Source of the DNA: an uncultured Eubacteriales bacterium
GTDB taxonomy: Bacteria; Bacillota; Clostridia; Christensenellales; Borkfalkiaceae
Assembly: GCA_900549005.1 (NCBI GenBank)
Contig: URMT01000043.1
Span: 1-12,411 of the forward strand
Reading direction: 5' to 3'
Length of the DNA: 12,411 bases
The first letter of the stretch is position 1. Each line of letters starts with the position of its first letter. The position numbers were made by a program, and so were the translations under genes. This document shows, piece by piece, positions 2-12,411 of this stretch. Below the pieces are notes generated by a model. The model did not search any database. It saw only the letters and a list, made by a program, of their open reading frames with translations, and was not told the origin of the DNA.

Positions 2-3000
2 ACCGTATCTGGCGGCGTAGTTACGGGCGTTAAGGCAGGCGAAGTGACGATAACCGCAAAGGCGGGCGATAAGAGCGCAACCTGTACGGTTACTGTAAAT
101 CCCGCCACCGACCCCGACCCCGTAGTGACGGATGTTGAAATCAGCGGGGCGGCCAACACCCTTACGGTGGGCGGCAGCCTTAAACTTACAGCAACGGTGC
201 TTCCTGCGGGTGTTTCTCAGCAGGTAACGTGGAGCATTTCAAGCGGCTCAGACATAGCTACCGTTACTTCCGAAGGTGTGGTAACTGCTACGGGAGCAGG
301 AAAAGTTGTGGTAAGGGCAACCGCAGACGGCACTGCCATATACGGCGAGTGGACAATAACGGTGACGGCATCCGCAGAGCTCGAAACGGAGTATGTGTTC
401 GATATGAACTATTTCCTCACGACTTCGCAAAATTATCTTGGCGGAGGGTCATCGGGCGACAGAACGACTCAACCTATACAGGTCGGGATATTTACCGTTG
501 CGGCGGGAGTTCGTCCGGAAGCGAGCAACAACAGATTCAATTCCCAGGGTGCGGAAGACGCTATAACCTTTATTGTCAGCGGATATACTAATACAATCTC
601 GTTCTCTCTCACGGGTGCGAGCGGCGCAGGCGCCGCCAATATTGTTACTCTAAGGCGCATAAATGCTGACGGGACTACTGTTGAGGGAAGCGAGATTATA
701 ATAAGCAATAATCTTGCTAACGGCGAATCTCCTTCGCAAACGGTATACGAAAATTTGCCTGCCGGCACGTATGTGCTTACGGCAACAAGGTCGTTCCGCC
801 TTACTGCTCTTTCCGTGACTGAATTTCAACAGCCACATTCCTGTGCGGAAAATGCTGAGGCAACCGCATATCGGGCGGCTACTTGTACAGAGCCGGGCAA
901 TATAGCATATTGGACTTGCTCTGAATGCGGAAACATATATTCCGATGAGCAATGCACAATGCTTATAACGCAGGAGCAGACTGTTATCCCTGCAAAGGGG
1001 CACAGCCCTGCAAGCGGGTGGTCGCACGACGATGCCTCGCATTGGCACGCCTGCCTCAACGGCTGCGGGACACAGCTTGATAAGGTTTCCCACGATACGA
1101 ACGGCGCAGACGGGGCTTGCTCGGTTTGCGGCTATATAGAGGGACATAAGCACTCTCTCACGCGGCAACAGTATACAGACGGCTGCGCAAACAACCCCGT
1201 AACTTATTATACCTGCTCGGGCTGCTCCAATCTGTTCCTTGACGAGAACGGCACGCAGGTAGTGACTATGGACGACATACAGAAGATGAGCGCGCACGAC
1301 CTCGCGCACCATACGGCGGTAGAGGCCACCTGTGAACACGCGGGCAACATCGAATACTGGGAGTGCGACAACTGCCACAAGTTCTTTACGGACGAAGGCA
1401 TAACCGAAGTGGAGCAGAGCGACATCGTTGAAGCTCAGCTTGACCACGATTATGAGTATCAGAGCAACAGCACCCAGCATTGGAAAGAGTGCACTATGTG
1501 CAAAACCGAACTGGACGGCTCGCGCAAAAATCATTCATTTGGCGCGGCCGACAGTCAGGGCAATCAGACTTGCTCGGATTGCGGCTACAAGATAAACACG
1601 GGCGCGCTTGAAAACGTCGAAGAATACGGCGCATACGAAGAGAGTATGTACGTAGTAATGCAGGACGACGTAACGGCCGACCTTAAAGTGACCTACAACG
1701 CGGCAGGTTCAAGCAGCGTGACCGCCGTGCCCTCCGAACTTATCAGAACGGTGAACGGTGCAACCCGCGTGGATATAGTGGGCGTATCGGCAGGCATTTA
1801 CGATATCAACCTCTCTATCGGCGGCACCAACTTTACTCTCGGTGACATAGAAGTAGAGGCTTACGACCGTTCGGGTTACGCCCACTTCGACCCCGACGCG
1901 CCGAACGATATGTATGCAAACGGCATAGGCGCATACGAAAACGACGGCACGTTGAAAGACGGCGCGCTGGTAATATATCTGACCGAAGCAAACAAGAACG
2001 ATATATCAAATAGTGCGTACGTCTACGACGAAGAGACAGACAGCTATACCAAGGCAGATATAACCAAGTATTTCCACCCTAAGGGAGAACAGTATACCAG
2101 CACACAAACAAATACTACCTATACAACTTCTTATAGCATAGGTTACTTCCTCAATAACAGGATGTATAACACAAGCACTACCGGTAACCCCGGTACGGCG
2201 AACGGCGGTATAAATACATACGGCATAAAGGCTGCGTGTGACGATTACGGTGCTGTTGTTGTAAGAGTTATGGGCAAGGTAAATGCGGAAATCTCTGGCT
2301 CTATGGATAGCGCCATAGACGGCCTCACCGCTTATAACTCAACCGACAATGCCGGCACGGGAGCTCCTGGTGAAAAGGGTGATAATGGCAGGATGGTGCG
2401 CATAGTGGACGCCTATAATCTCACCATAGAGGGAATAGGTGAAGATGCTTCCATCTATGGCTGGGGCTTCCACTTCATTGCAAACAAAGGCGAACAGTCC
2501 GAATACGGCGTGCACGGTGGCGAAAGTTTTGAAGTGCGCAACTTAACGTTTGAACGCTACCCCGAAGATGCGTTAGGTATGGAAGGGCAGGGCGACGATA
2601 TAACCGTTCCCGTACAGCGTTGCTGGGTACATAACAATGTATTTAAACCCGGATATGCTTCCAATCCCACAGAGGGCGATAAGGCGGAAGGCGACGGTTC
2701 GTGCGACTTCAAGCGCGGTTATTACTATACGTTCAGCTATAACTATCTTGAAGGCTGCCATAAGACTAACCTGATAGGTGCAAGCGATAGCTGCAAACAA
2801 TATAACATAACATTCCATCACAACTGGTGGCGCAACTGCGGTTCGCGTATACCGCTTACAAGGCAGGCGAACGTGCACTACTACAATAACTATATCTCTG
2901 TCGACGCAGATTATGAAGGCGAAATAAGTTACGTAATGAGTCCTCGCGCCAGCTGCTATATTTTTGCCGAAGGCAACTATTTCGATGGCTGCAAGAATAT

Positions 3001-4780
3001 CATAAGCGGCAGCGGAGGCACGGTTAAGTTCTGGAACAACACGTTCCATGCCTGCTACGACGATATTCCTTCGCAGACATCGAGCCGCGACGAAAAGGTA
3101 TCTTCAAACTGTGAATATGCAGGAACAAGCTACTCTTCGTTCGAGCTCAACTCCGAACTGTTTTACGATGCCGAGGGTAAACTTGCTACCGATTCTGTGA
3201 CGGCGCGCAAAGTCGTTATGCAGCAGGCGGGCGTTCACGGTTTCGGCCAAGAAACCGCTACCGGAATGAATGCCGTTAACCCTCAGCAATCTGTAAGCAT
3301 ACCCCAAGAGGGGCTTACGGTAGACCTTTCACAGGTTTCAAAGACCTCTTCCGTGCAGTATGTAAACGGCGTTGCTTTCACCAATATTACAGGTGTTTCG
3401 TCAGGTACTGTAAAGGGTAAGGGTCAGCTTGTAACGTTTGCCGTTCAGGGCGGTGCTGTGGTTACCATAACTTGCAGCGGCAGCGGTGCGGCGGCAGGCG
3501 AGCTTATTGGTGCTGACGGCAAACTGTATGCAGGCAAAATCAACGGTACGGTCACGGTAGAGCTTGAAAGCGGCATTTATGTGCTTGCTTCCGGGATAAA
3601 AGACAAAGAGCTTACAATAAGCGCAATTTCTTTTGAGGATGCCGCAGGTTCGTCGGAAATCCGTGTGCAGGCAGTTATAGATGCAATCAACGCTATACCT
3701 TCCACGGTGACGCTTGACTCGGCTGAAACGGTAAACGCCGCAAGGCAGGCATACGACGCGCTTCGCGACGACGAAGTTTCGCAGATTCCTTCAAACCTTG
3801 TAACTAAGCTCAAAGAGGCTGAAACTACGCTCTCCGGTTTGCTGGTAAACAATGTTATAAACCTTATTGCCCAAATTGGCGAAGTGAACGAGAACAGCTA
3901 TAATGCAATCAACGCGGCGCGTACGGCCTACAACGCTCTTACTGTTGCGCTTCGGCCGCAGGTAACCAACTATAACGTACTCGTTTCGGCGGAAACAGAG
4001 TTCGAGAATTTTGAGGTTATAAGCGTTCAGAATATGATTGACGCTCTTCCCGAAACTTCAAATGTAACCATAGCCGACGAAAGCTCGGTGCAAACCGTAC
4101 TTGAAAGGTATCGGACGGCGTATGACGCATACGGTATTCTCGACGAAAATCAGACGGCTCAGGTGGGCGACAGCCGTTACGACAAGGTAATTAAAGGTAT
4201 GGCGTATCTCGAAGGCGTGCTCAACGTTTACGACTTTAAAGACGCGCTTGCGGCGGTAGACGTAGACAGTGCGGATATGGCTGCTCTCGGCGCGATTATA
4301 GAGGCTTACAATGAATTTGCCGACGACGATACGCTTGTAAATCTTCTTACAGAGGAAGAAAACATAAAGTATCAGAGCATTTCAGAAAAGTATACTGAGT
4401 TTGCAAGCCAGGCAATCACGGTAAGTTTTACTGAGAGTGCGGAAAACTGGATAGGTGATAATAGTTTATTTAGTTATGTTACTGAAAGTTCTCTCAGAAA
4501 AGAAAGTAGCCCGCTGAATTTTGGTGGCGTAGAGTATACGCATACGCTTAAAATGGAAACCGATGTGTCTATCAACTTCACAACGAGCGCCACAATGAGC
4601 TTGACTGTCTATTTCTCAACGCGTAGTGTAGATAGAAGTGTTTATATTGACGGTAATGCTTATAACGTTCAGGCTGATGGCACGGTTGTTATTAACAATT
4701 TAGGTGCGGGAACGCATAGCATCACAAAAGATGATACAAATGTAGATGTATTCCTTATTTCCCTTACGCCTGCGGGCTGA
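2..4780 (+). CDS. Large modular secreted pectate lyase (PL1), 5' end off window
   Basis: The frame is open from base 2, so the N-terminus and any signal peptide lie upstream; 1592 residues are visible, ending in tandem stops TGA TAA. Visible modules in order (nt): the end of one Big_2 Ig-like domain (2-115), a complete Big_2 domain (about 122-373), a beta-sandwich domain (377-832), Cys/His-rich repeats (833-1599), a linker domain (1612-2200), a right-handed beta-helix pectate lyase core (about 2215-3060), a second beta-sandwich (3287-3650), helical repeats (3660-4410) and a third beta-sandwich (4412-4777). The lyase call rests on PL1-like blocks: CWVHNNVF, CDFKRGYYYTFSYN, HKTNLIGASDS, ITFHHNWW, GSRIPLTR and NVHYYNNY. 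The first Arg of RIPLTR (nt 2846-2848) fits the catalytic Arg of the family. By family knowledge it would cleave pectate or polygalacturonate by calcium-dependent beta-elimination outside the cell. No LPXTG or membrane anchor is visible at the C-terminus. The last module has lower GC than the rest. The lyase class is secure; the exact substrate is inferred. Confidence 0.88.
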   Translation, partial: TVSGGVVTGVKAGEVTITAKAGDKSATCTVTVNPATDPDPVVTDVEISGAANTLTVGGSLKLTATVLPAGVSQQVTWSISSGSDIATVTSEGVVTATGAGKVVVRATADGTAIYGEWTITVTASAELETEYVFDMNYFLTTSQNYLGGGSSGDRTTQPIQVGIFTVAAGVRPEASNNRFNSQGAEDAITFIVSGYTNTISFSLTGASGAGAANIVTLRRINADGTTVEGSEIIISNNLANGESPSQTVYENLPAGTYVLTATRSFRLTALSVTEFQQPHSCAENAEATAYRAATCTEPGNIAYWTCSECGNIYSDEQCTMLITQEQTVIPAKGHSPASGWSHDDASHWHACLNGCGTQLDKVSHDTNGADGACSVCGYIEGHKHSLTRQQYTDGCANNPVTYYTCSGCSNLFLDENGTQVVTMDDIQKMSAHDLAHHTAVEATCEHAGNIEYWECDNCHKFFTDEGITEVEQSDIVEAQLDHDYEYQSNSTQHWKECTMCKTELDGSRKNHSFGAADSQGNQTCSDCGYKINTGALENVEEYGAYEESMYVVMQDDVTADLKVTYNAAGSSSVTAVPSELIRTVNGATRVDIVGVSAGIYDINLSIGGTNFTLGDIEVEAYDRSGYAHFDPDAPNDMYANGIGAYENDGTLKDGALVIYLTEANKNDISNSAYVYDEETDSYTKADITKYFHPKGEQYTSTQTNTTYTTSYSIGYFLNNRMYNTSTTGNPGTANGGINTYGIKAACDDYGAVVVRVMGKVNAEISGSMDSAIDGLTAYNSTDNAGTGAPGEKGDNGRMVRIVDAYNLTIEGIGEDASIYGWGFHFIANKGEQSEYGVHGGESFEVRNLTFERYPEDALGMEGQGDDITVPVQRCWVHNNVFKPGYASNPTEGDKAEGDGSCDFKRGYYYTFSYNYLEGCHKTNLIGASDSCKQYNITFHHNWWRNCGSRIPLTRQANVHYYNNYISVDADYEGEISYVMSPRASCYIFAEGNYFDGCKNIISGSGGTVKFWNNTFHACYDDIPSQTSSRDEKVSSNCEYAGTSYSSFELNSELFYDAEGKLATDSVTARKVVMQQAGVHGFGQETATGMNAVNPQQSVSIPQEGLTVDLSQVSKTSSVQYVNGVAFTNITGVSSGTVKGKGQLVTFAVQGGAVVTITCSGSGAAAGELIGADGKLYAGKINGTVTVELESGIYVLASGIKDKELTISAISFEDAAGSSEIRVQAVIDAINAIPSTVTLDSAETVNAARQAYDALRDDEVSQIPSNLVTKLKEAETTLSGLLVNNVINLIAQIGEVNENSYNAINAARTAYNALTVALRPQVTNYNVLVSAETEFENFEVISVQNMIDALPETSNVTIADESSVQTVLERYRTAYDAYGILDENQTAQVGDSRYDKVIKGMAYLEGVLNVYDFKDALAAVDVDSADMAALGAIIEAYNEFADDDTLVNLLTEEENIKYQSISEKYTEFASQAITVSFTESAENWIGDNSLFSYVTESSLRKESSPLNFGGVEYTHTLKMETDVSINFTTSATMSLTVYFSTRSVDRSVYIDGNAYNVQADGTVVINNLGAGTHSITKDDTNVDVFLISLTPAG
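833..1599 (+). repeat. Alternating Cys-pair repeats inside the pectate lyase gene
   Basis: Protein-level repeats of two kinds. Type A has the pattern ATC..GNI.YW.C..C...F.DE and occurs around nt 878-970, 1166-1260 (degenerate) and 1318-1420. Type B has the pattern HW..C..C followed by a C..CGY unit and occurs around nt 1015-1152 and 1444-1593. The order is A-B-A-A-B. Together they hold six CxxC pairs and one CxxxC. Such units occur in large Firmicutes surface proteins; metal binding or disulfide formation is inferred, not shown. Confidence 0.75.
3660..4410 (+). repeat. Helical-bundle repeats in the pectate lyase C-terminal region
   Basis: About four protein repeats, each with a V..xI..I/LP start, a central (A/R)..R.AYDAL-like helix and a closing helix with L..AE. 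Examples are VIDAINAIP followed by ARQAYDAL, VINLIAQIG followed by ARTAYNAL, and MIDALPETS followed by YRTAYDAY. They resemble the small three-helix modules found in large Gram-positive surface proteins and probably act as a spacer or an adhesive stalk. The function is inferred. Confidence 0.6.
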
Positions 4781-4808
4781 TAAGTTAATAACAAAACTTA
4801 AACACAGC

Positions 4809-5118: not shown

Positions 5119-6351
5119 ATGAAGAACGTAATTGTCGGTCAGTCCGGCGGACCTACCGCAGTTATCAATTCCAGCCTTCTGGGCGTATTCAAAACGGCTA
5201 AGGACAGGGGGGCCGACGTCGTTTACGGAATGGTTCACGGCATAAAGGGGCTTTTGGACAGAAACATAGTCGACCTTTCCGCTCACATCAAAAACGACCT
5301 CGATATGGACCTGTTGAAGAGGACGCCTTCGTCCTTCCTCGGCTCGTGCCGCTACAAACTGCCCGACATCGAGGGCAACGAAAAGACCTACGAAGAAATC
5401 TTCAAAATTTTAAAGGAATACAACATCTACGCCTTCTTCTATATCGGCGGCAACGACTCGATGGATACCATCAAAAAGCTGTCTGACTACGGCGAAAAGA
5501 TAAACAGCCCCATACGCTTTATGGGCGTTCCCAAGACTATTGACAACGACCTCGCCATAACCGACCACACACCCGGCTACGGCAGTGCGGCAAAATACAT
5601 AGCTTCCACCACCAAGGAAATCATCCGCGACGGCCTCGTATACGACTATCCCGTCGTATCTATAATAGAGGTAATGGGCCGCAACGCGGGCTGGCTTACG
5701 GCTGCCGCCGCGCTCGCAAAGGGGGAGGACTGCGAGGGCGTTGACCTCATCTATCTTCCCGAGCGCGTGTTCGACCTCGATAAATTCCTCGCAAAGGTAG
5801 GCGAGCTCTACAAACAGAAACGCTCGGTGGTAATCGCCGTGTCCGAGGGCGTAAAAATCGCCGACGGCAGGTATGTGTGCGAGCTTGCCGACCACGTGGA
5901 CTACGTGGACGCGTTCGGACACAAACAGCTTGCGGGCACCGCGCGCTTCCTCGCCGCGAAGGTGGCGGAAAAGTACGGCGTAAAGACGAGGGCGATAGAG
6001 CTTTCGTCGTTGCAGCGCTGCGCATCTCACATAACCTCGCGCATAGACGTTACCGAGGCGTTCAACGCGGGCGGCGCGGCCGTAAAGGCTGCGTTCGAGG
6101 GAATGAGCGGACAGGTAATCACCTTGAAGCGCGTATCGGAAGACCCGTATATGTGCGTGACCGAACCTGCCGACGTTCACTTCATAGCCAACGTTGAAAA
6201 GAAAGTGCCCGACGAGTGGATAGCCGAAGACGGCACCTACGTAAAAGAGGCGCTCGTTCACTATATCCGTCCGCTCATTCAGGCAGAAATCGCGCCGCTG
6301 TGGGTAGACGGACTTCCCCGCCATCTCATTTTGAAGCAGTCTTTGAAGTGA
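5119..6351 (+). CDS. pfp: Pyrophosphate-dependent 6-phosphofructokinase
   Basis: The 410-residue protein belongs to the phosphofructokinase family, which phosphorylates fructose 6-phosphate to fructose 1,6-bisphosphate in the cytoplasm. The phosphate-donor loop starts with GQSGGPTAVIN (residues 7-17). The motif GGNDS carries Asp where ATP enzymes have Gly, and PKTIDND carries Lys where ATP enzymes have Gly. By family knowledge these two residues favour pyrophosphate over ATP and make the reaction reversible. The substrate motif MGRNAGWL and the YLPER segment are also present. The ATG at 5119 is supported by the purine-rich AAGGGGGGA (5102-5110), 8 bases upstream, and by the strong promoter at 5016-5044. 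The gene stands alone, with its own promoter, a possible operator and a downstream terminator. Isoleucine codons are 15 ATC, 13 ATA and 5 ATT, which contrasts with the rsmH region at the right. The donor assignment is a confident motif-based inference. Confidence 0.93.
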   Translation: MKNVIVGQSGGPTAVINSSLLGVFKTAKDRGADVVYGMVHGIKGLLDRNIVDLSAHIKNDLDMDLLKRTPSSFLGSCRYKLPDIEGNEKTYEEIFKILKEYNIYAFFYIGGNDSMDTIKKLSDYGEKINSPIRFMGVPKTIDNDLAITDHTPGYGSAAKYIASTTKEIIRDGLVYDYPVVSIIEVMGRNAGWLTAAAALAKGEDCEGVDLIYLPERVFDLDKFLAKVGELYKQKRSVVIAVSEGVKIADGRYVCELADHVDYVDAFGHKQLAGTARFLAAKVAEKYGVKTRAIELSSLQRCASHITSRIDVTEAFNAGGAAVKAAFEGMSGQVITLKRVSEDPYMCVTEPADVHFIANVEKKVPDEWIAEDGTYVKEALVHYIRPLIQAEIAPLWVDGLPRHLILKQSLK

Positions 6352-6945: not shown

Positions 6946-9318
6946 ATGCGTAAAAACGTAAAAAGGGCGCTTGCTTGCGCCGCCGCGGCAGTACTTGCCG
7001 GCGGTCTTACTTTTGCCGCAGCGTGCAGCGGCAACTATTACAGTGCTACTCCCCTCGACGGCAGCTATGAATACGACGAAGTCGTATCCAACGGCGGCTT
7101 TGCGGTACAGGCAGGGGACTGGGTTTATTTCATCAACGGCGTAGAGAGCAACACGGCAGACAGCAACTCTTACGGCGACGTCGTAAAGGGTTCGCTCGTG
7201 CGCATCTCGCTCGAAAATCTCGCCGCGGGCAACTATTCCGATGTGCAGACGGTGGTTCCCCTCATAATGTATTCCGGCGACTACGACGCGGGTATATACA
7301 TCTACGGCGACTACGTGTATTACAGCACGCCCTCCACGGCAAGGGATTCGAGCGGCGAAGTTCTGAATACCCGCCTGGAATTCAAGAGCACCAAGCTCGA
7401 CGGCACCGAGACGATGACCGACTATTACTTCCAGTCTGAAAACACAGACTTGGATTACCGCTTTATGGAAGTGGACGGCACCGTCTATCTCGTATATGCA
7501 ACGTCTGAAATTCTCTACGGCACAGAATCCCGAACGAATATCCATTCGGTAAATCTTAAAACCCGCACAGATACTCTGCTTGCATACGACGTAGACAGCT
7601 ATGCCTTCGACAGTCTGAATACAGACAGCCAGTATGTTTACTATACAATGGGCGTAACATACAACCTGGGCACGGACAACGCTTCCGATGCGGACTATAA
7701 CCAGGTATACCGCGTGCGTGCAGACGCCAAGGCGGAGTACGCTCCCCGCGAATATAACTTCGACTACGTTGAAGATTTCGACGCGGAAGAGGACCCTCTG
7801 TACGTCAACCTCGGCGAGTTCGTGTTCGACGGCAGGGGCGTGTTCAGCGGAATGACGCAGTTCAACTACGGTTACAGAGCCGATTCCGACAGCGATACCT
7901 CTTCCGACGACGCCAACACCCTTTCGGGCTACACGTACGAGATTGTATCCTACGAAGACGGCAAGCTCTATTATACCCGCACAAATTCGGGTGACAGCGC
8001 CCAGATGCTTCTGTACGTTAAAGACAGTGAAATGGACGAAGACGGTGATGGTAAAATAGACAAAAGCTGGAACCCCGTAACGGGCAACCCTTCGGCTCCC
8101 GCTTACGGCGGCAAGTCGCTTTTGTATGCGGCTTCCAACGTTTCGGGCTATAATTTCGTAACGAATGCCGACGGCGTACCCACGGGCGTCATCTATACCG
8201 AGGGCATAACCAACGGCTACGCGCTTATGAGCGCAACGTTCTCGGGCGGCGCGCTCACCGATATATTCCCTATGGCCACCGCTTCCGACGAGATAAACAT
8301 TCTCACCACTTCGGAAGAGACGGTAAACGACACGGCTTATACCTTCCTGTATTACAGCGTATCGGGCGAGGGCAACGAATATTCAATTCACCGCATAGCG
8401 CTCGGCGGAACGGACAGCGATTATAACGAGCTGCCTTCCTTCTCCGAAACCGAGGCGATGAGCAACTACGACGATACAAAGATACTCGATTTGGACGTCG
8501 TATCCACGTGGTATATGCCCGAGATTCTCGGCGGTCACATCTTCTTTGCAACTGCCACCACCGATATGACCGACTATGACTATATAATGGCGTTCGACCT
8601 TCGCGACGAGGGCGTTACTACCGCGACCAACGTCACGATGTCTAACGACGATATAGAGGCTCTCAACGACCTTTACGACAGCGTAATCGGCGACGAAGAG
8701 GGCAACGAGGGCATAATCGCCTCCATAGACGAAGAAGATTTCCAGAACCTTCCCAACGCTCTCCGCTTTGCGTTCTATGCAGGCGCAAGCCAGGTAAACC
8801 GCGTTGACGAGCTGATTGCCGACTGGGTTGACGAAGGCGAGGACGAGGAGTACCTCTTCTCGGTAGAGTCCGCAGAGATGTATAAGGACTTTATAAACGC
8901 GACGGGTACCTATGCAGACCTTGCGGAAGAGGGCACCAGAAAGGTGAACGGGGCTGACCTTCACCCCAACACGCGCGACTACTTCTATTGCCTTGTAGGC
9001 GTGATGACCGAAGACGACGCCGAAAATTATATCGAGGACCTCGCCGGCGACTATCTGCCTGCCGCTCCCACCACGGAAGAGGGCTGGTTTGAATCGCTCT
9101 CCACCGGTGCGAAAGTCGGCTTCATAATCGGCGTGTGCGCGGGCGGCATAATAATAATCGCCGCGGCAGTGCTCATACCCGTGCTCGTCATCCGCAAAAA
9201 GAAGAAGACGCTTCCTCAGTATAACAAGAAGCGCATCAAAGTGGACACCACCGACGACAGGGATATCGACGTATACGCAAGCGACGAACCTCAGGACGGC
9301 GATTCTGAAAACAAATAA
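6946..9318 (+). CDS. Surface lipoprotein with C-terminal membrane helix, beta-propeller-like
   Basis: A 790-residue protein of unrecognised specific function. The N-terminus has basic residues, a hydrophobic stretch and a lipobox-like TFAAAC with Cys27 as the likely lipidated residue. A long extracytoplasmic part follows, rich in Tyr, Asp, Gly and Ser, with repeated strand patterns such as GDWVYFIN, GDYVYYST, SQYVYYTM and DGKLYYTR. These resemble the DUF5050-type beta-propeller proteins of Firmicutes. A calcium-loop-like DEDGDGKID lies at residues 364-372. Near the C-terminus a 26-residue hydrophobic helix (about 724-749) is followed by RKKKK and a 40-residue charged tail. The basic flank predicts a cytoplasmic tail. 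The protein would thus be held in the membrane at both ends if the lipobox is used; otherwise the first segment is an ordinary signal peptide. The start is supported by GGGG six bases upstream and the promoter at 6834-6862. It is monocistronic, ended by the terminator at 9335-9366. A sensor, substrate-binding or scaffold role is possible; none is shown. Confidence 0.8.
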   Translation: MRKNVKRALACAAAAVLAGGLTFAAACSGNYYSATPLDGSYEYDEVVSNGGFAVQAGDWVYFINGVESNTADSNSYGDVVKGSLVRISLENLAAGNYSDVQTVVPLIMYSGDYDAGIYIYGDYVYYSTPSTARDSSGEVLNTRLEFKSTKLDGTETMTDYYFQSENTDLDYRFMEVDGTVYLVYATSEILYGTESRTNIHSVNLKTRTDTLLAYDVDSYAFDSLNTDSQYVYYTMGVTYNLGTDNASDADYNQVYRVRADAKAEYAPREYNFDYVEDFDAEEDPLYVNLGEFVFDGRGVFSGMTQFNYGYRADSDSDTSSDDANTLSGYTYEIVSYEDGKLYYTRTNSGDSAQMLLYVKDSEMDEDGDGKIDKSWNPVTGNPSAPAYGGKSLLYAASNVSGYNFVTNADGVPTGVIYTEGITNGYALMSATFSGGALTDIFPMATASDEINILTTSEETVNDTAYTFLYYSVSGEGNEYSIHRIALGGTDSDYNELPSFSETEAMSNYDDTKILDLDVVSTWYMPEILGGHIFFATATTDMTDYDYIMAFDLRDEGVTTATNVTMSNDDIEALNDLYDSVIGDEEGNEGIIASIDEEDFQNLPNALRFAFYAGASQVNRVDELIADWVDEGEDEEYLFSVESAEMYKDFINATGTYADLAEEGTRKVNGADLHPNTRDYFYCLVGVMTEDDAENYIEDLAGDYLPAAPTTEEGWFESLSTGAKVGFIIGVCAGGIIIIAAAVLIPVLVIRKKKKTLPQYNKKRIKVDTTDDRDIDVYASDEPQDGDSENK

Positions 9319-9525: not shown

Positions 9526-9666
9526 ACAGTCACTATTCTGCATAAAAAAGCGGCTTCGGCGGCAAAATTATTGTGATTTTTGAGCGGGAAAAATATGGCG
9601 CCCGTGCGGTATGGCAAAAATGACATTTTTTTAACAAAATAATTTGATTTTTATTTGTTAAAACGG

Positions 9667-9695
9667 TTTACAAATAAAGCAAATGCTAATATAAT
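9667..9695 (+). promoter_or_regulatory. Promoter of the zinc-ribbon protein gene
   Basis: A -35 box TTTACA (9667-9672), a 17-bp spacer and a perfect -10 box TATAAT (9690-9695). Transcription would start near 9702, giving a leader of about 105 nt before the chosen ATG at 9808. The leader contains one hairpin, GGGAAAA with TTTTCCC (9750-9756, 9765-9771), of unknown meaning. Confidence 0.8.
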
Positions 9696-9807
9696 GTTAC
9701 CATTGATTAGGGTTAGCCGGATGTTGATAGCTTTTAACACTCGGCTTATGGGAAAAGAGGGATTTTTTCCCGCCTGTATTCTTTTTAGATACGGAGAAAA
9801 TCTGAAT

Positions 9808-10308
9808 ATGATTAAGTATGTAAAATGCCCCAGGTGCGAACTCAACTACATCGACCCTGAAAAACAGGAGTACTGCGACGTCTGCATAGCCGAAATGAAG
9901 GGCAACAAATTGCAGTTTGCCGATTTCGACGAAGACTTTGACGACGAAAACGCAGAAAAGACGGAAATCTGCCCCGTGTGCGGCGTGAATACTATGCGCT
10001 ACGGCGAAAAGATGTGCGACGCCTGCAAACAGGCCAGCCAGTACGAGGACGACCAGGACGTAGATATGGACACCGACGAGGAGTGGAAGAACTACCTCGA
10101 AGACGACGAAGACCTCACCATCGACGACGAAACTCTCGAAGAGGAGCTTTCGGAAGAGCTCGACGACGAGTATGACGATGAAGAGAGCGAAGAACATTAC
10201 GACGAAGACGACCCTCTTTCAGACTTCGACGACGACTTCTCCGACGATGAAGACGATGATGAGGACGATGACGACGAAGACGACGAGGACGATGACGACC
10301 TGTTCTGA
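9808..10308 (+). CDS. Double zinc-ribbon protein with long acidic tail
   Basis: A 166-residue cytoplasmic protein of unrecognised function. The N-terminal half has two four-Cys modules: CPRC (7-10) with CDVC (23-26), and CPVC (55-58) with CDAC (70-73). Each fits a zinc ribbon. From about residue 76 to the end it is dominated by Asp and Glu, closing with a near-pure acidic run and LF. This start is chosen because the conserved-looking sequence begins MIKYVKCPRC and GGAG (9793-9796) lies 11 bases upstream. The frame is open further up (in-frame ATGs at 9694, 9721 and 9748), but the extra residues look unlike this protein and the ATG at 9694 overlaps the -10 box. Acidic tails of this kind often occur on proteins that bind basic partners or nucleic-acid enzymes; that is only a suggestion. 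Tandem stops TGA TAG. The Veg-family gene follows after 56 bases with no terminator, so the two may be co-transcribed. Confidence 0.75.
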   Translation: MIKYVKCPRCELNYIDPEKQEYCDVCIAEMKGNKLQFADFDEDFDDENAEKTEICPVCGVNTMRYGEKMCDACKQASQYEDDQDVDMDTDEEWKNYLEDDEDLTIDDETLEEELSEELDDEYDDEESEEHYDEDDPLSDFDDDFSDDEDDDEDDDDEDDEDDDDLF

Positions 10309-10364
10309 TAGCGCCTTTTTCAAAGCTGCATAATTTTGCCTGTTTCGGGCAATAATAGCAGTAT

Positions 10365-10604
10365 ATGATAAAACCAACAACAAGCGTTTCGCAGGTGAAG
10401 CGCGCCGTAGAGGGGTGCTATTTAAAGCCCGTCACGGTAAAGCTCAACCTCGGCAGGAACAAATTCGTCACTTTTCCCGCCACCGTAAACGGCGTATATC
10501 CGTCGCTGTTCACGGTCAGCCCTGACGACAAAAATTTTTTGGGCAAAACGGCCTATTCATACTCCGAACTGCTCTGCGGCAGGGTAAAACTTAAAGCAAG
10601 GTAA
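10365..10604 (+). CDS. veg: Veg family protein
   Basis: A 79-residue protein matching the Veg family of Firmicutes (in Bacillus subtilis a small protein linked to biofilm matrix expression). The recognisable pattern is a short N-terminal helix region (VSQVKRAVEG), a strand segment VTVKLNLGRNKFV, then NGVYPSLFTV and the YSYSELL motif near the end, corresponding to the YPSVF and YSYADIL parts of the Bacillus protein. The length is close to the family's usual 80-90 residues. The ATG at 10365 has no clear Shine-Dalgarno sequence upstream, which is odd, but no better start exists in frame. It probably shares a transcript with the zinc-ribbon gene. It is the last gene with the codon style of the left part; the truncated rsmH begins about 16 bases after its stop. 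Confidence 0.85.
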   Translation: MIKPTTSVSQVKRAVEGCYLKPVTVKLNLGRNKFVTFPATVNGVYPSLFTVSPDDKNFLGKTAYSYSELLCGRVKLKAR

Positions 10605-10622
10605 CCGTAAAATTATTTTGGG
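10605..10622. other. Probable junction between two unrelated sequence segments
   Basis: Immediately after the veg stop, 16 bases (10605-10620) lead directly into the middle of the GGAGHS motif of rsmH. The frame upstream of this motif is closed by TAA at 10608-10610, and the residues before it (N-Y-F) do not match the usual D.T.G lead-in. Codon use changes across this point. It is either an assembly join at a short GC-rich overlap or a real recombination point. Confidence 0.65.
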
Positions 10623-11459
10623 GGCGCCGGTCATTCTTTCGGGTTTGCTTCGCAGCTTAACGAAGACGGAATGCTTATAGGCATTGACCAGGACGAAGAT
10701 GCCATTGCCGCTTCGCAGAAACGCCTGGCGCCGTGCAAATGTAAAATTGCTACGGTTAAAAGTAATTTTAAGGATTTTGACACAGTGCTGGATGGTTTAG
10801 GCGTTGAAAAGATTGACGGTATCTTTTTTGACCTTGGCGTTTCAAGTTATCAGCTGGATACGCCGGAACGCGGTTTTTCGTATATGCACGACGGGCCGCT
10901 TGATATGCGCATGGATAAAAGCGCGAAGCTGAGCGCGGAATATATTGTAAATAATTATTCTGAAAGCGAGCTTGCTGATGTTATTCACCGTTACGGTGAG
11001 GAGCGCTGGAGCAAACGCATAGCTGCTTTTATTGCGGCAGAGCGCAAAAACAAACATATTTCCACCACTTTTGAACTGGTGGAAATTATAAAAAAAGCTA
11101 TACCCAAAGGTGCCAGAATGGATGGGCCGCACCCGGCAAAAAGAACTTTTCAGGCACTGAGGATTGAAGTTAACAACGAGCTCGGCATACTGCAAAAAAC
11201 AATGGAAAATGCTGTGGCAAGGCTTAAAACAGGCGGAAGGATTGGCGTAATAACCTTTCATTCGCTGGAAGACAGAATTGTAAAACAAACTTTTGCAGCG
11301 CTTGCCAAAGGCTGCATTTGCCCGCCGCAGGTTCCGGTATGTGTGTGCGGCAGAAAACCGCAGCTGAAAAAAGTGGGGAATATTGTGCCGCCGGCGGAAG
11401 AAGTTGAAGAAAATCCGCGTGCGCGCAGTGCAAGGCTTAGGTTTGCCGAGAAATGCTGA
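10620..11459 (+). pseudogene. rsmH: 16S rRNA m4C1402 methyltransferase RsmH, 5'-truncated
   Basis: The 279 codons readable in frame cover all but the first 30 or so residues of a family that is usually about 310 long. RsmH methylates N4 of C1402 in 16S rRNA with S-adenosylmethionine. Motifs present: GGAGHS (10620-10637), [60 protein letters not shown] and the C-terminal [10 protein letters not shown]. The start codon and the N-terminal segment before the SAM motif are missing. The first in-frame ATG (10671) lies after the GGAGHS motif, so any product from it (262 residues) would probably be inactive. Isoleucine codons are 14 ATT, 6 ATA and 1 ATC, unlike pfp. The gene leads into an ftsL-like gene after 24 bases, as expected for a dcw cluster. 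It is intact from the motif onward, which suggests a cut sequence and not slow decay. Confidence 0.9.
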
Positions 11460-11483
11460 TAAATATTGATGGAGGAAAACGCT

Positions 11484-11891
11484 ATGTTAGCCAGAAAGTA
11501 TGATGAATATGCATGGGAATTGGAAGAACAACAAGAAAATACTGTACGGCAGACAGCGTATGTAAAAAGGCCCAAACAGCGCAATTTAAAACTTATGCGC
11601 CGCCGTATTGCTGTGGTGGCAGGAATTTTGCTGGCTACTTATTTTGCATGCGTTGTACGCAGCGAATGCCTTATTTCCAAAAGCAATGAGCTTGTAGCTT
11701 TAAAACAGCAGGAAGCGGCTTTGATGCTGGAAAACAGCGAAGAACGCATTGTTGTTGAGCAGCTTAAGGGGCCTGAAAGAATTACCTCTATTGCAGAAAA
11801 GCAGCTTGGCATGCAGGTAGCGCGCAACAATATTTATGTTAAAGCAGACAAAGGTAAAATTGCTTATGACGGTTATGCTTATGCAAAGTAA
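11484..11891 (+). CDS. ftsL: FtsL-like cell division protein
   Basis: A 135-residue bitopic membrane protein. It has a charged cytoplasmic N-terminus (1-40), a single membrane helix (about 42-58, RIAVVAGILLATYFACVV), a coiled-coil segment (about 59-96) and a GPERITSIAEKQLGMQ block typical of FtsL/DivIC-type proteins. FtsL works in the divisome with partners such as DivIC/FtsB and activates septal wall synthesis. The position directly after rsmH is the normal one in the dcw cluster. The start at 11484 is set by GGAGG (11471-11475), 8 bases upstream; the ATG at 11469 and TTG at 11466 overlap or precede this site and are less likely. Codon use agrees with rsmH and murE. Sequence conservation in this family is low, so the name rests on topology, motif and context. 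Confidence 0.8.
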   Translation: MLARKYDEYAWELEEQQENTVRQTAYVKRPKQRNLKLMRRRIAVVAGILLATYFACVVRSECLISKSNELVALKQQEAALMLENSEERIVVEQLKGPERITSIAEKQLGMQVARNNIYVKADKGKIAYDGYAYAK

Positions 11892-11917
11892 AAAACATAG
11901 CCTTCTTAAGCAAGATA

Positions 11918-11926
11918 TGGTATAAT
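11918..11926 (+). promoter_or_regulatory. Extended -10 promoter in front of murE
   Basis: TGG followed by TATAAT (11921-11926) forms an extended -10 element. No convincing -35 box lies 17 bases upstream. Transcription would begin near 11933, giving murE a leader of about 60 nt. Confidence 0.5.
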
Positions 11927-11944
11927 AATATAAAATTTTATGGG

Positions 11945-11972
11945 AGGCAGCCTGAGTGTATTAAGGCTGCCG
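11945..11972 (+). promoter_or_regulatory. Hairpin in the murE leader
   Basis: GGCAGCCT (11946-11953) pairs with AGGCTGCC (11964-11971) around a 10-nt loop, followed by the moderately T-rich GTTTCACTTTT. It sits between the possible promoter and the ribosome-binding site at 11983. It could weakly attenuate or terminate transcription coming from ftsL; the T-tract is interrupted, so this is uncertain. Confidence 0.4.
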
Positions 11973-11994
11973 TTTCACTTTTGGAGGTATCCGG

Positions 11995-12411
11995 ATGGAA
12001 AAGAATTTACAGGATTTGCTGAAGCTGCTGCCGGACGCAGAAGTTACCGGCGCGGCAGGCAAAACCATTACTGATATAACTGCCGATTCCCGCGTTGTTG
12101 TGCCGGGAAGTTTATTTATCTGCCTGAAAGGCGCAACCGTTGACGGGCATAAATTTTTACAGCAGGCGCATGAAAAGGGCGCTGTGGCAGCCATTGTTGA
12201 AGATGCTGTTATATGCCCGGAAGGCATGACGCTGATTAAGGTAAACGATACCAGAAGGGCCATGGAGTTAGTGACCCCTTATTTTTTTGACTATCCCGGC
12301 AAAAAAATGCGCATGATTGGCGTTACCGGAACCAACGGCAAAACAACTACCACCAATATTATCAGGCTTATTCTGCGTAAGGCAGGATATAAGGTTGGTA
12401 TGATTGGTACC
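11995..12411 (+). CDS. murE: UDP-MurNAc-tripeptide ligase MurE, 3' end off window
   Basis: The first 139 residues of a Mur ligase. The N-terminal UMP-binding domain shows ITDITADSRVVVPGSLFICL, KGATVDGHKF and a GAVAAIV segment. The central ATPase domain begins with the P-loop GVTGTNGKTTT (residues 114-124). The ADSR..PG.LF..L.G...DGH pattern is typical of MurE, which adds the third amino acid to UDP-MurNAc-L-Ala-D-Glu in peptidoglycan synthesis. The part that decides between meso-diaminopimelate and lysine lies beyond the window. The ATG at 11995 has GGAGG (11983-11987) 7 bases upstream. The gene is not directly coupled to ftsL: a 103-base gap with its own promoter and hairpin separates them, and the ftsI-type penicillin-binding protein gene often found here is absent. 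Confidence 0.92.
   Translation, partial: MEKNLQDLLKLLPDAEVTGAAGKTITDITADSRVVVPGSLFICLKGATVDGHKFLQQAHEKGAVAAIVEDAVICPEGMTLIKVNDTRRAMELVTPYFFDYPGKKMRMIGVTGTNGKTTTTNIIRLILRKAGYKVGMIGT

Follow-up and report, generated by a model that had tools for sequence, protein, structure and literature searches.

Assemblers can create chimeric contigs via shared k-mers or sequencing errors, as stated where PMC7299287 deals with such contigs. The two gene neighbourhoods that come closest to the locus described here are found in different bacteria. In Phascolarctobacterium sp. ET69 (locus L001), of a genus that belongs to the class Negativicutes, rsmH is intact, encodes 312 amino acids and lies directly after mraZ; it starts 99 nt before the point at which rsmH sets in within the window, the whole stretch of 12,411 nucleotides analysed here. 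In a Clostridia locus (L127), the frame that follows veg encodes a SipL/SPOCS domain, as found in this one locus tested, and is followed by a GHMP kinase gene, which from its position we take to be probably ispE. Judged by sequence comparison, the window very probably is a chimeric contig in which DNA from these two bacterial classes is joined.

Relatives of the joined veg/rsmH region were collected by a search of genome contigs, and among the best 80 of 411 confirmed loci the top ten were all from Phascolarctobacterium. A blastn comparison of the window with loci L001 to L016 aligned positions 10620-12411 without gaps to ET69 and to a second genome (L002), with 96.5% DNA identity over 1792 columns in both cases; the rsmH start of L002 coincides with that of L001 in the alignment. 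The match to L003 extends into the veg part of the joined query (residues 124-454), which was taken for a chance extension. The right-hand DNA was matched in all six genomes of the ET69 genus, in five of them from 10620 onwards and in the remaining one over no more than the last 198 bases, and the left 10,610 bases gave a single 36-base match (E 7.6e-4) in one of the six.

This right-hand part carries three genes on the forward strand: rsmH without its first 33 codons (10620-11459, recognized with RsmH models and by comparison with L001), an ftsL-like gene (11466-11891, with FtsL/DivIC models scoring under their cut-offs) and murE (11995-12411, recognized with murE models), the 3' end of which is cut by the end of the window. 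The matching parts of the three proteins share 96, 100 and 97% amino acid identity, respectively, with their ET69 counterparts. The closest RsmH protein among the best 120 of 7998 scored is likewise 96% identical and has a length of 312 residues. A complete gene for the RsmH 16S rRNA methyltransferase, including the N-terminal part and the start codon, is not present: matches to the RsmH profiles begin at position 29 (PF01795) or 32 (TIGR00006) and run to the end of the models, and 99 nt, corresponding to 33 codons, are absent relative to ET69. An earlier sequence-only reading of this DNA had estimated that rsmH lacks its start and about 30 of its first codons, which is borne out by these values. 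It had also pointed to GGAGHS as the first family residues past the veg stop, and indeed the stop codon TAA of veg occupies 10602-10604 and the codons GGG-GGC-GCC-GGT-CAT-TCT follow from 10620, with 15 bases in between. An in-frame stop at 10608-10610, upstream of GGAGHS in the rsmH frame, makes an upstream start for rsmH impossible.

The seam, where the sequences of the two source organisms meet (10605-10622, no strand assigned), is set by the end of the left-genus matches and the beginning of the similarity to Phascolarctobacterium. With positions 9600-10640 as the query against 93 genomes of the Clostridia genus of G533, none of the matches listed goes past 10613. The alignments to L001 and L002 show that similarity to Phascolarctobacterium begins at 10620 with a first mismatch at 10622, and of the 60 bases preceding 10620 only 16 and 17 are identical to L001 and L002, which is chance level. 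On the evidence of these matches, the sequence switches between two bacterial classes at this site. The sequence-only reading had proposed a short 'GGGGGCGCC-like' overlap for the join. ET69 has GGGCGGCGCCGG at this site and GGCGCCGG (10623-10630) is therefore native to the right side; the GGCGCC of the window lies where the window has TTTTGGGGGCGCCGG and ET69 has CATGGGCGGCGCCGG.

Starting from genomes reached in the contig search, relatives of the left side were sought stepwise, in a sample of 391 genomes (class of G006, Clostridiales), in 398 genomes of the G204 family and finally in 93 genomes of the G533 genus, where the query 9600-10640 was matched in 91 of the 93 genomes. Five genes, all on the forward strand, lie on this side. 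The first encodes a pectate lyase-like protein (2-4780; Pfam Pectate_lyase_4, CBM77 and Big_2), is cut at its 5' side by the window end, and has left-genus relatives of up to 58% identity over nearly the full length. It is followed by a gene for a pfp-like phosphofructokinase (5119-6351; Pfam PFK, NCBIfam PRK14072.1), whose product is up to 98% identical to a protein of the left genus, encoded in G533 on a contig (C17) that also carries the veg gene of this genome. The next two genes have no Pfam or NCBIfam match and were recognized by their conservation in congeneric genomes. One encodes a 790-amino acid protein (6946-9318), by eye apparently secreted and membrane-anchored; the other encodes an Asp/Glu-rich protein (9808-10308) that by eye is zinc-ribbon-like and has a very acidic tail. 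In all seven congeneric loci fetched, the 790-residue protein (56-66% amino acid identity) is encoded upstream of the zinc-ribbon gene, and the zinc-ribbon-like protein is conserved with 83-94% identity over its first 106-131 residues. The zinc-ribbon gene precedes veg in the same seven loci. The complete veg gene (10365-10604; Pfam VEG, E 9e-13) closes the series. Its protein is identical to that of a cluster representing 618 public contigs, and among 120 matches listed all seven relatives with an NCBI organism name (72-81% identical) are labelled 'Clostridia bacterium'.

The order pfp, 790-residue protein, zinc ribbon, veg is kept in five of the seven loci; in the other two no pfp lies within the stretch. 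In the six loci examined of the seven fetched, the next frame after veg has 491-502 codons and is not rsmH. Pfam recognized nothing in short N-terminal stretches of the genes downstream of veg and did find matches in the longer frames of L127. The species of the left parent was not found among the genomes of this genus, in which the best congener, G533, is 90% identical in the Veg protein, and its different continuation after veg is accordingly drawn from its genus. The genus has an rsmH gene of its own in 85 of the 93 genomes, with 42-51% identity to rsmH of the window. It is listed on a different contig from veg in all 77 genomes with both listed (veg in 84, rsmH in 85), which, many of these genomes being fragmented, means only that the two were not seen as neighbours.

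Codon usage changes between the two sides. The counts of the isoleucine codons ATC/ATA/ATT in pfp (15/13/5) and in the rsmH fragment (1/6/14) given in the sequence-only reading were reproduced exactly, and the shift persists, as it had claimed, into ftsL (0/0/8) and murE (2/2/7). Pooled counts are 51/81/35 for the five left genes and 3/8/29 for the three right genes (chi-square p = 1.7e-9). The comparison of tetranucleotide profiles, proposed at the same time, gave a clear result on the right and a partly ambiguous one on the left: segment 10620-12411 correlates at 0.92 with a Phascolarctobacterium locus and at 0.48 with left-genus loci, and two of the nine wholly left segments, 2001-3791 (0.52 vs 0.44) and 3001-4791 (0.58 vs 0.52), fit Phascolarctobacterium slightly better. 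Composition thus changes at the seam with two of nine left segments ambiguous, and both of these fall in the pectate-lyase gene. This gene is rich in ATA, has a GC3 of 0.53 as compared to 0.71 for pfp, and differs in tetranucleotides from the other left genes. In view of its deviation and of the ambiguous segments, composition would not by itself be sufficient proof of a join.

The GC3 values and the ambiguous segments raised the question of whether another join lies between the pectate-lyase gene and pfp; the relatives of the pectate lyase in the left genus (up to 58% identical) speak against it. In genome G525, one contig carries both a pectate-lyase relative and pfp, at a distance of about 21 kb. 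By these gene matches, the left block may come from a single genome.

Inside the rsmH fragment, a tract on the forward strand (10712-10809) differs from ET69 in 31 of 98 bases and is flanked by stretches of 96 and 98% identity, with four mismatches in 92 bases at 10620-10711 and 28 in 1602 at 10810-12411. The tract has 14 codons with silent differences and eight in which the residue is altered. At the DNA level, 10680-10792 is matched best by another genome of the ET69 genus (L124, 86.7%), little above L002 (85.0%), and the best protein match of the tract, among 240 compared, is 84% identical over 32 of 36 residues. With these 31 mismatches, the tract, lying near the seam, hints at further mosaicism of the sequence. 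It may stem from natural recombination or gene conversion, or from strain mosaicism of the assembly beside the seam.

The closest relatives of the two sides thus belong to different organisms, on the left the Clostridia genus of G533 and on the right Phascolarctobacterium of the Negativicutes, and each side exists in its relatives in uninterrupted form. Both observations support the chimeric contig join that the sequence-only reading had preferred. DNA of an uncultured Clostridia species would extend from position 1 to about 10604-10619, and Phascolarctobacterium DNA close to that of strain ET69 would be joined to it at or just before 10620-10622. The seam would then lie inside the SAM-binding motif of rsmH on the right side, and this gene would look truncated because the DNA of another organism takes the place of mraZ upstream and of the 33 codons with which rsmH begins. 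We infer an origin of the join in library preparation or assembly rather than inside a cell; the unusual gene neighbourhood at the seam probably has no biological basis. To link two sequences, De Bruijn assemblers require that these share one k-mer or more, and this counts against the chimera at the seam, where a long shared word is not visible in comparison with relatives of the right parent. Such a junction would suit ligation, and within the chimera reading it is conceivable, if the less favoured course, that a chimeric molecule was formed by ligation or amplification before sequencing and that the assembler made no error.

A real and very recent transfer, which would have placed chromosomal DNA of a Phascolarctobacterium, beginning within rsmH and including ftsL and murE, after veg in a Clostridia genome, is very improbable. 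The seam falls past veg, between genes on the left, and no left gene is seen broken; moreover, a Clostridia genus with its own rsmH elsewhere need not be harmed by a broken extra copy. Against this stands the 96.5% DNA identity of the division genes to those of another class, which would require a very recent event, and the finding of rsmH on the veg contig in none of the 77 left-genus genomes mentioned above. Furthermore, the signs of a mobile-element insertion (element genes, a tRNA, repeats at the border in view) were not found. A Pfam scan of the eight main reading frames revealed no mobile-element family, only one border lying within the window; no tRNA was found in the window, the seam border included; and repeats of 11 bases at the seam are absent except for one inverted 11-mer, a copy of 10610-10620 at 9635-9645 that is taken as chance. 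In the viral_contigs collection no relatives of rsmH or veg were confirmed, and each of three scans, with exact words taken from the left side, from the right side and from the stretch spanning the seam, gave no matches. That the window comes from one ordinary genome with a truncated rsmH and gene-by-gene variation in codon usage, for which the varying GC3 of the left genes might be cited, is least probable of all and can practically be dismissed, as the matches of the two sides, at 96-98%, are to different classes and the gene order is undisturbed on each side.

With a chimeric contig as the preferred reading, inferences from gene neighbours across 10605-10622, such as veg lying beside rsmH, ftsL and murE, are not to be used, and the truncated rsmH is not to be taken as a variant enzyme. 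Any genome bin that includes such a contig would carry contamination from one of its two sides.

Similar to the inter-genome chimeric contigs of metagenomes, as characterized where PMC7299287 treats them, the window would hold sequence of more than one genome on one contig. The chimeras described there involve related species and arise via shared k-mers, or arise from sequencing errors, whereas in the window different classes meet and the overlap is putative. As compared to the mraZ-rsmH-ftsL-murE cluster of ET69, positions 10620-12411 have the same order and spacing, but the preceding mraZ and the initial 33 codons of rsmH, both present in ET69, are missing from the window. Compared to L127, it shows the same order of pfp, the 790-residue protein, zinc ribbon and veg, with 63-97% protein identity up to veg; beyond this gene L127 continues with the SPOCS gene and the GHMP kinase, whereas the window continues with the rsmH fragment.
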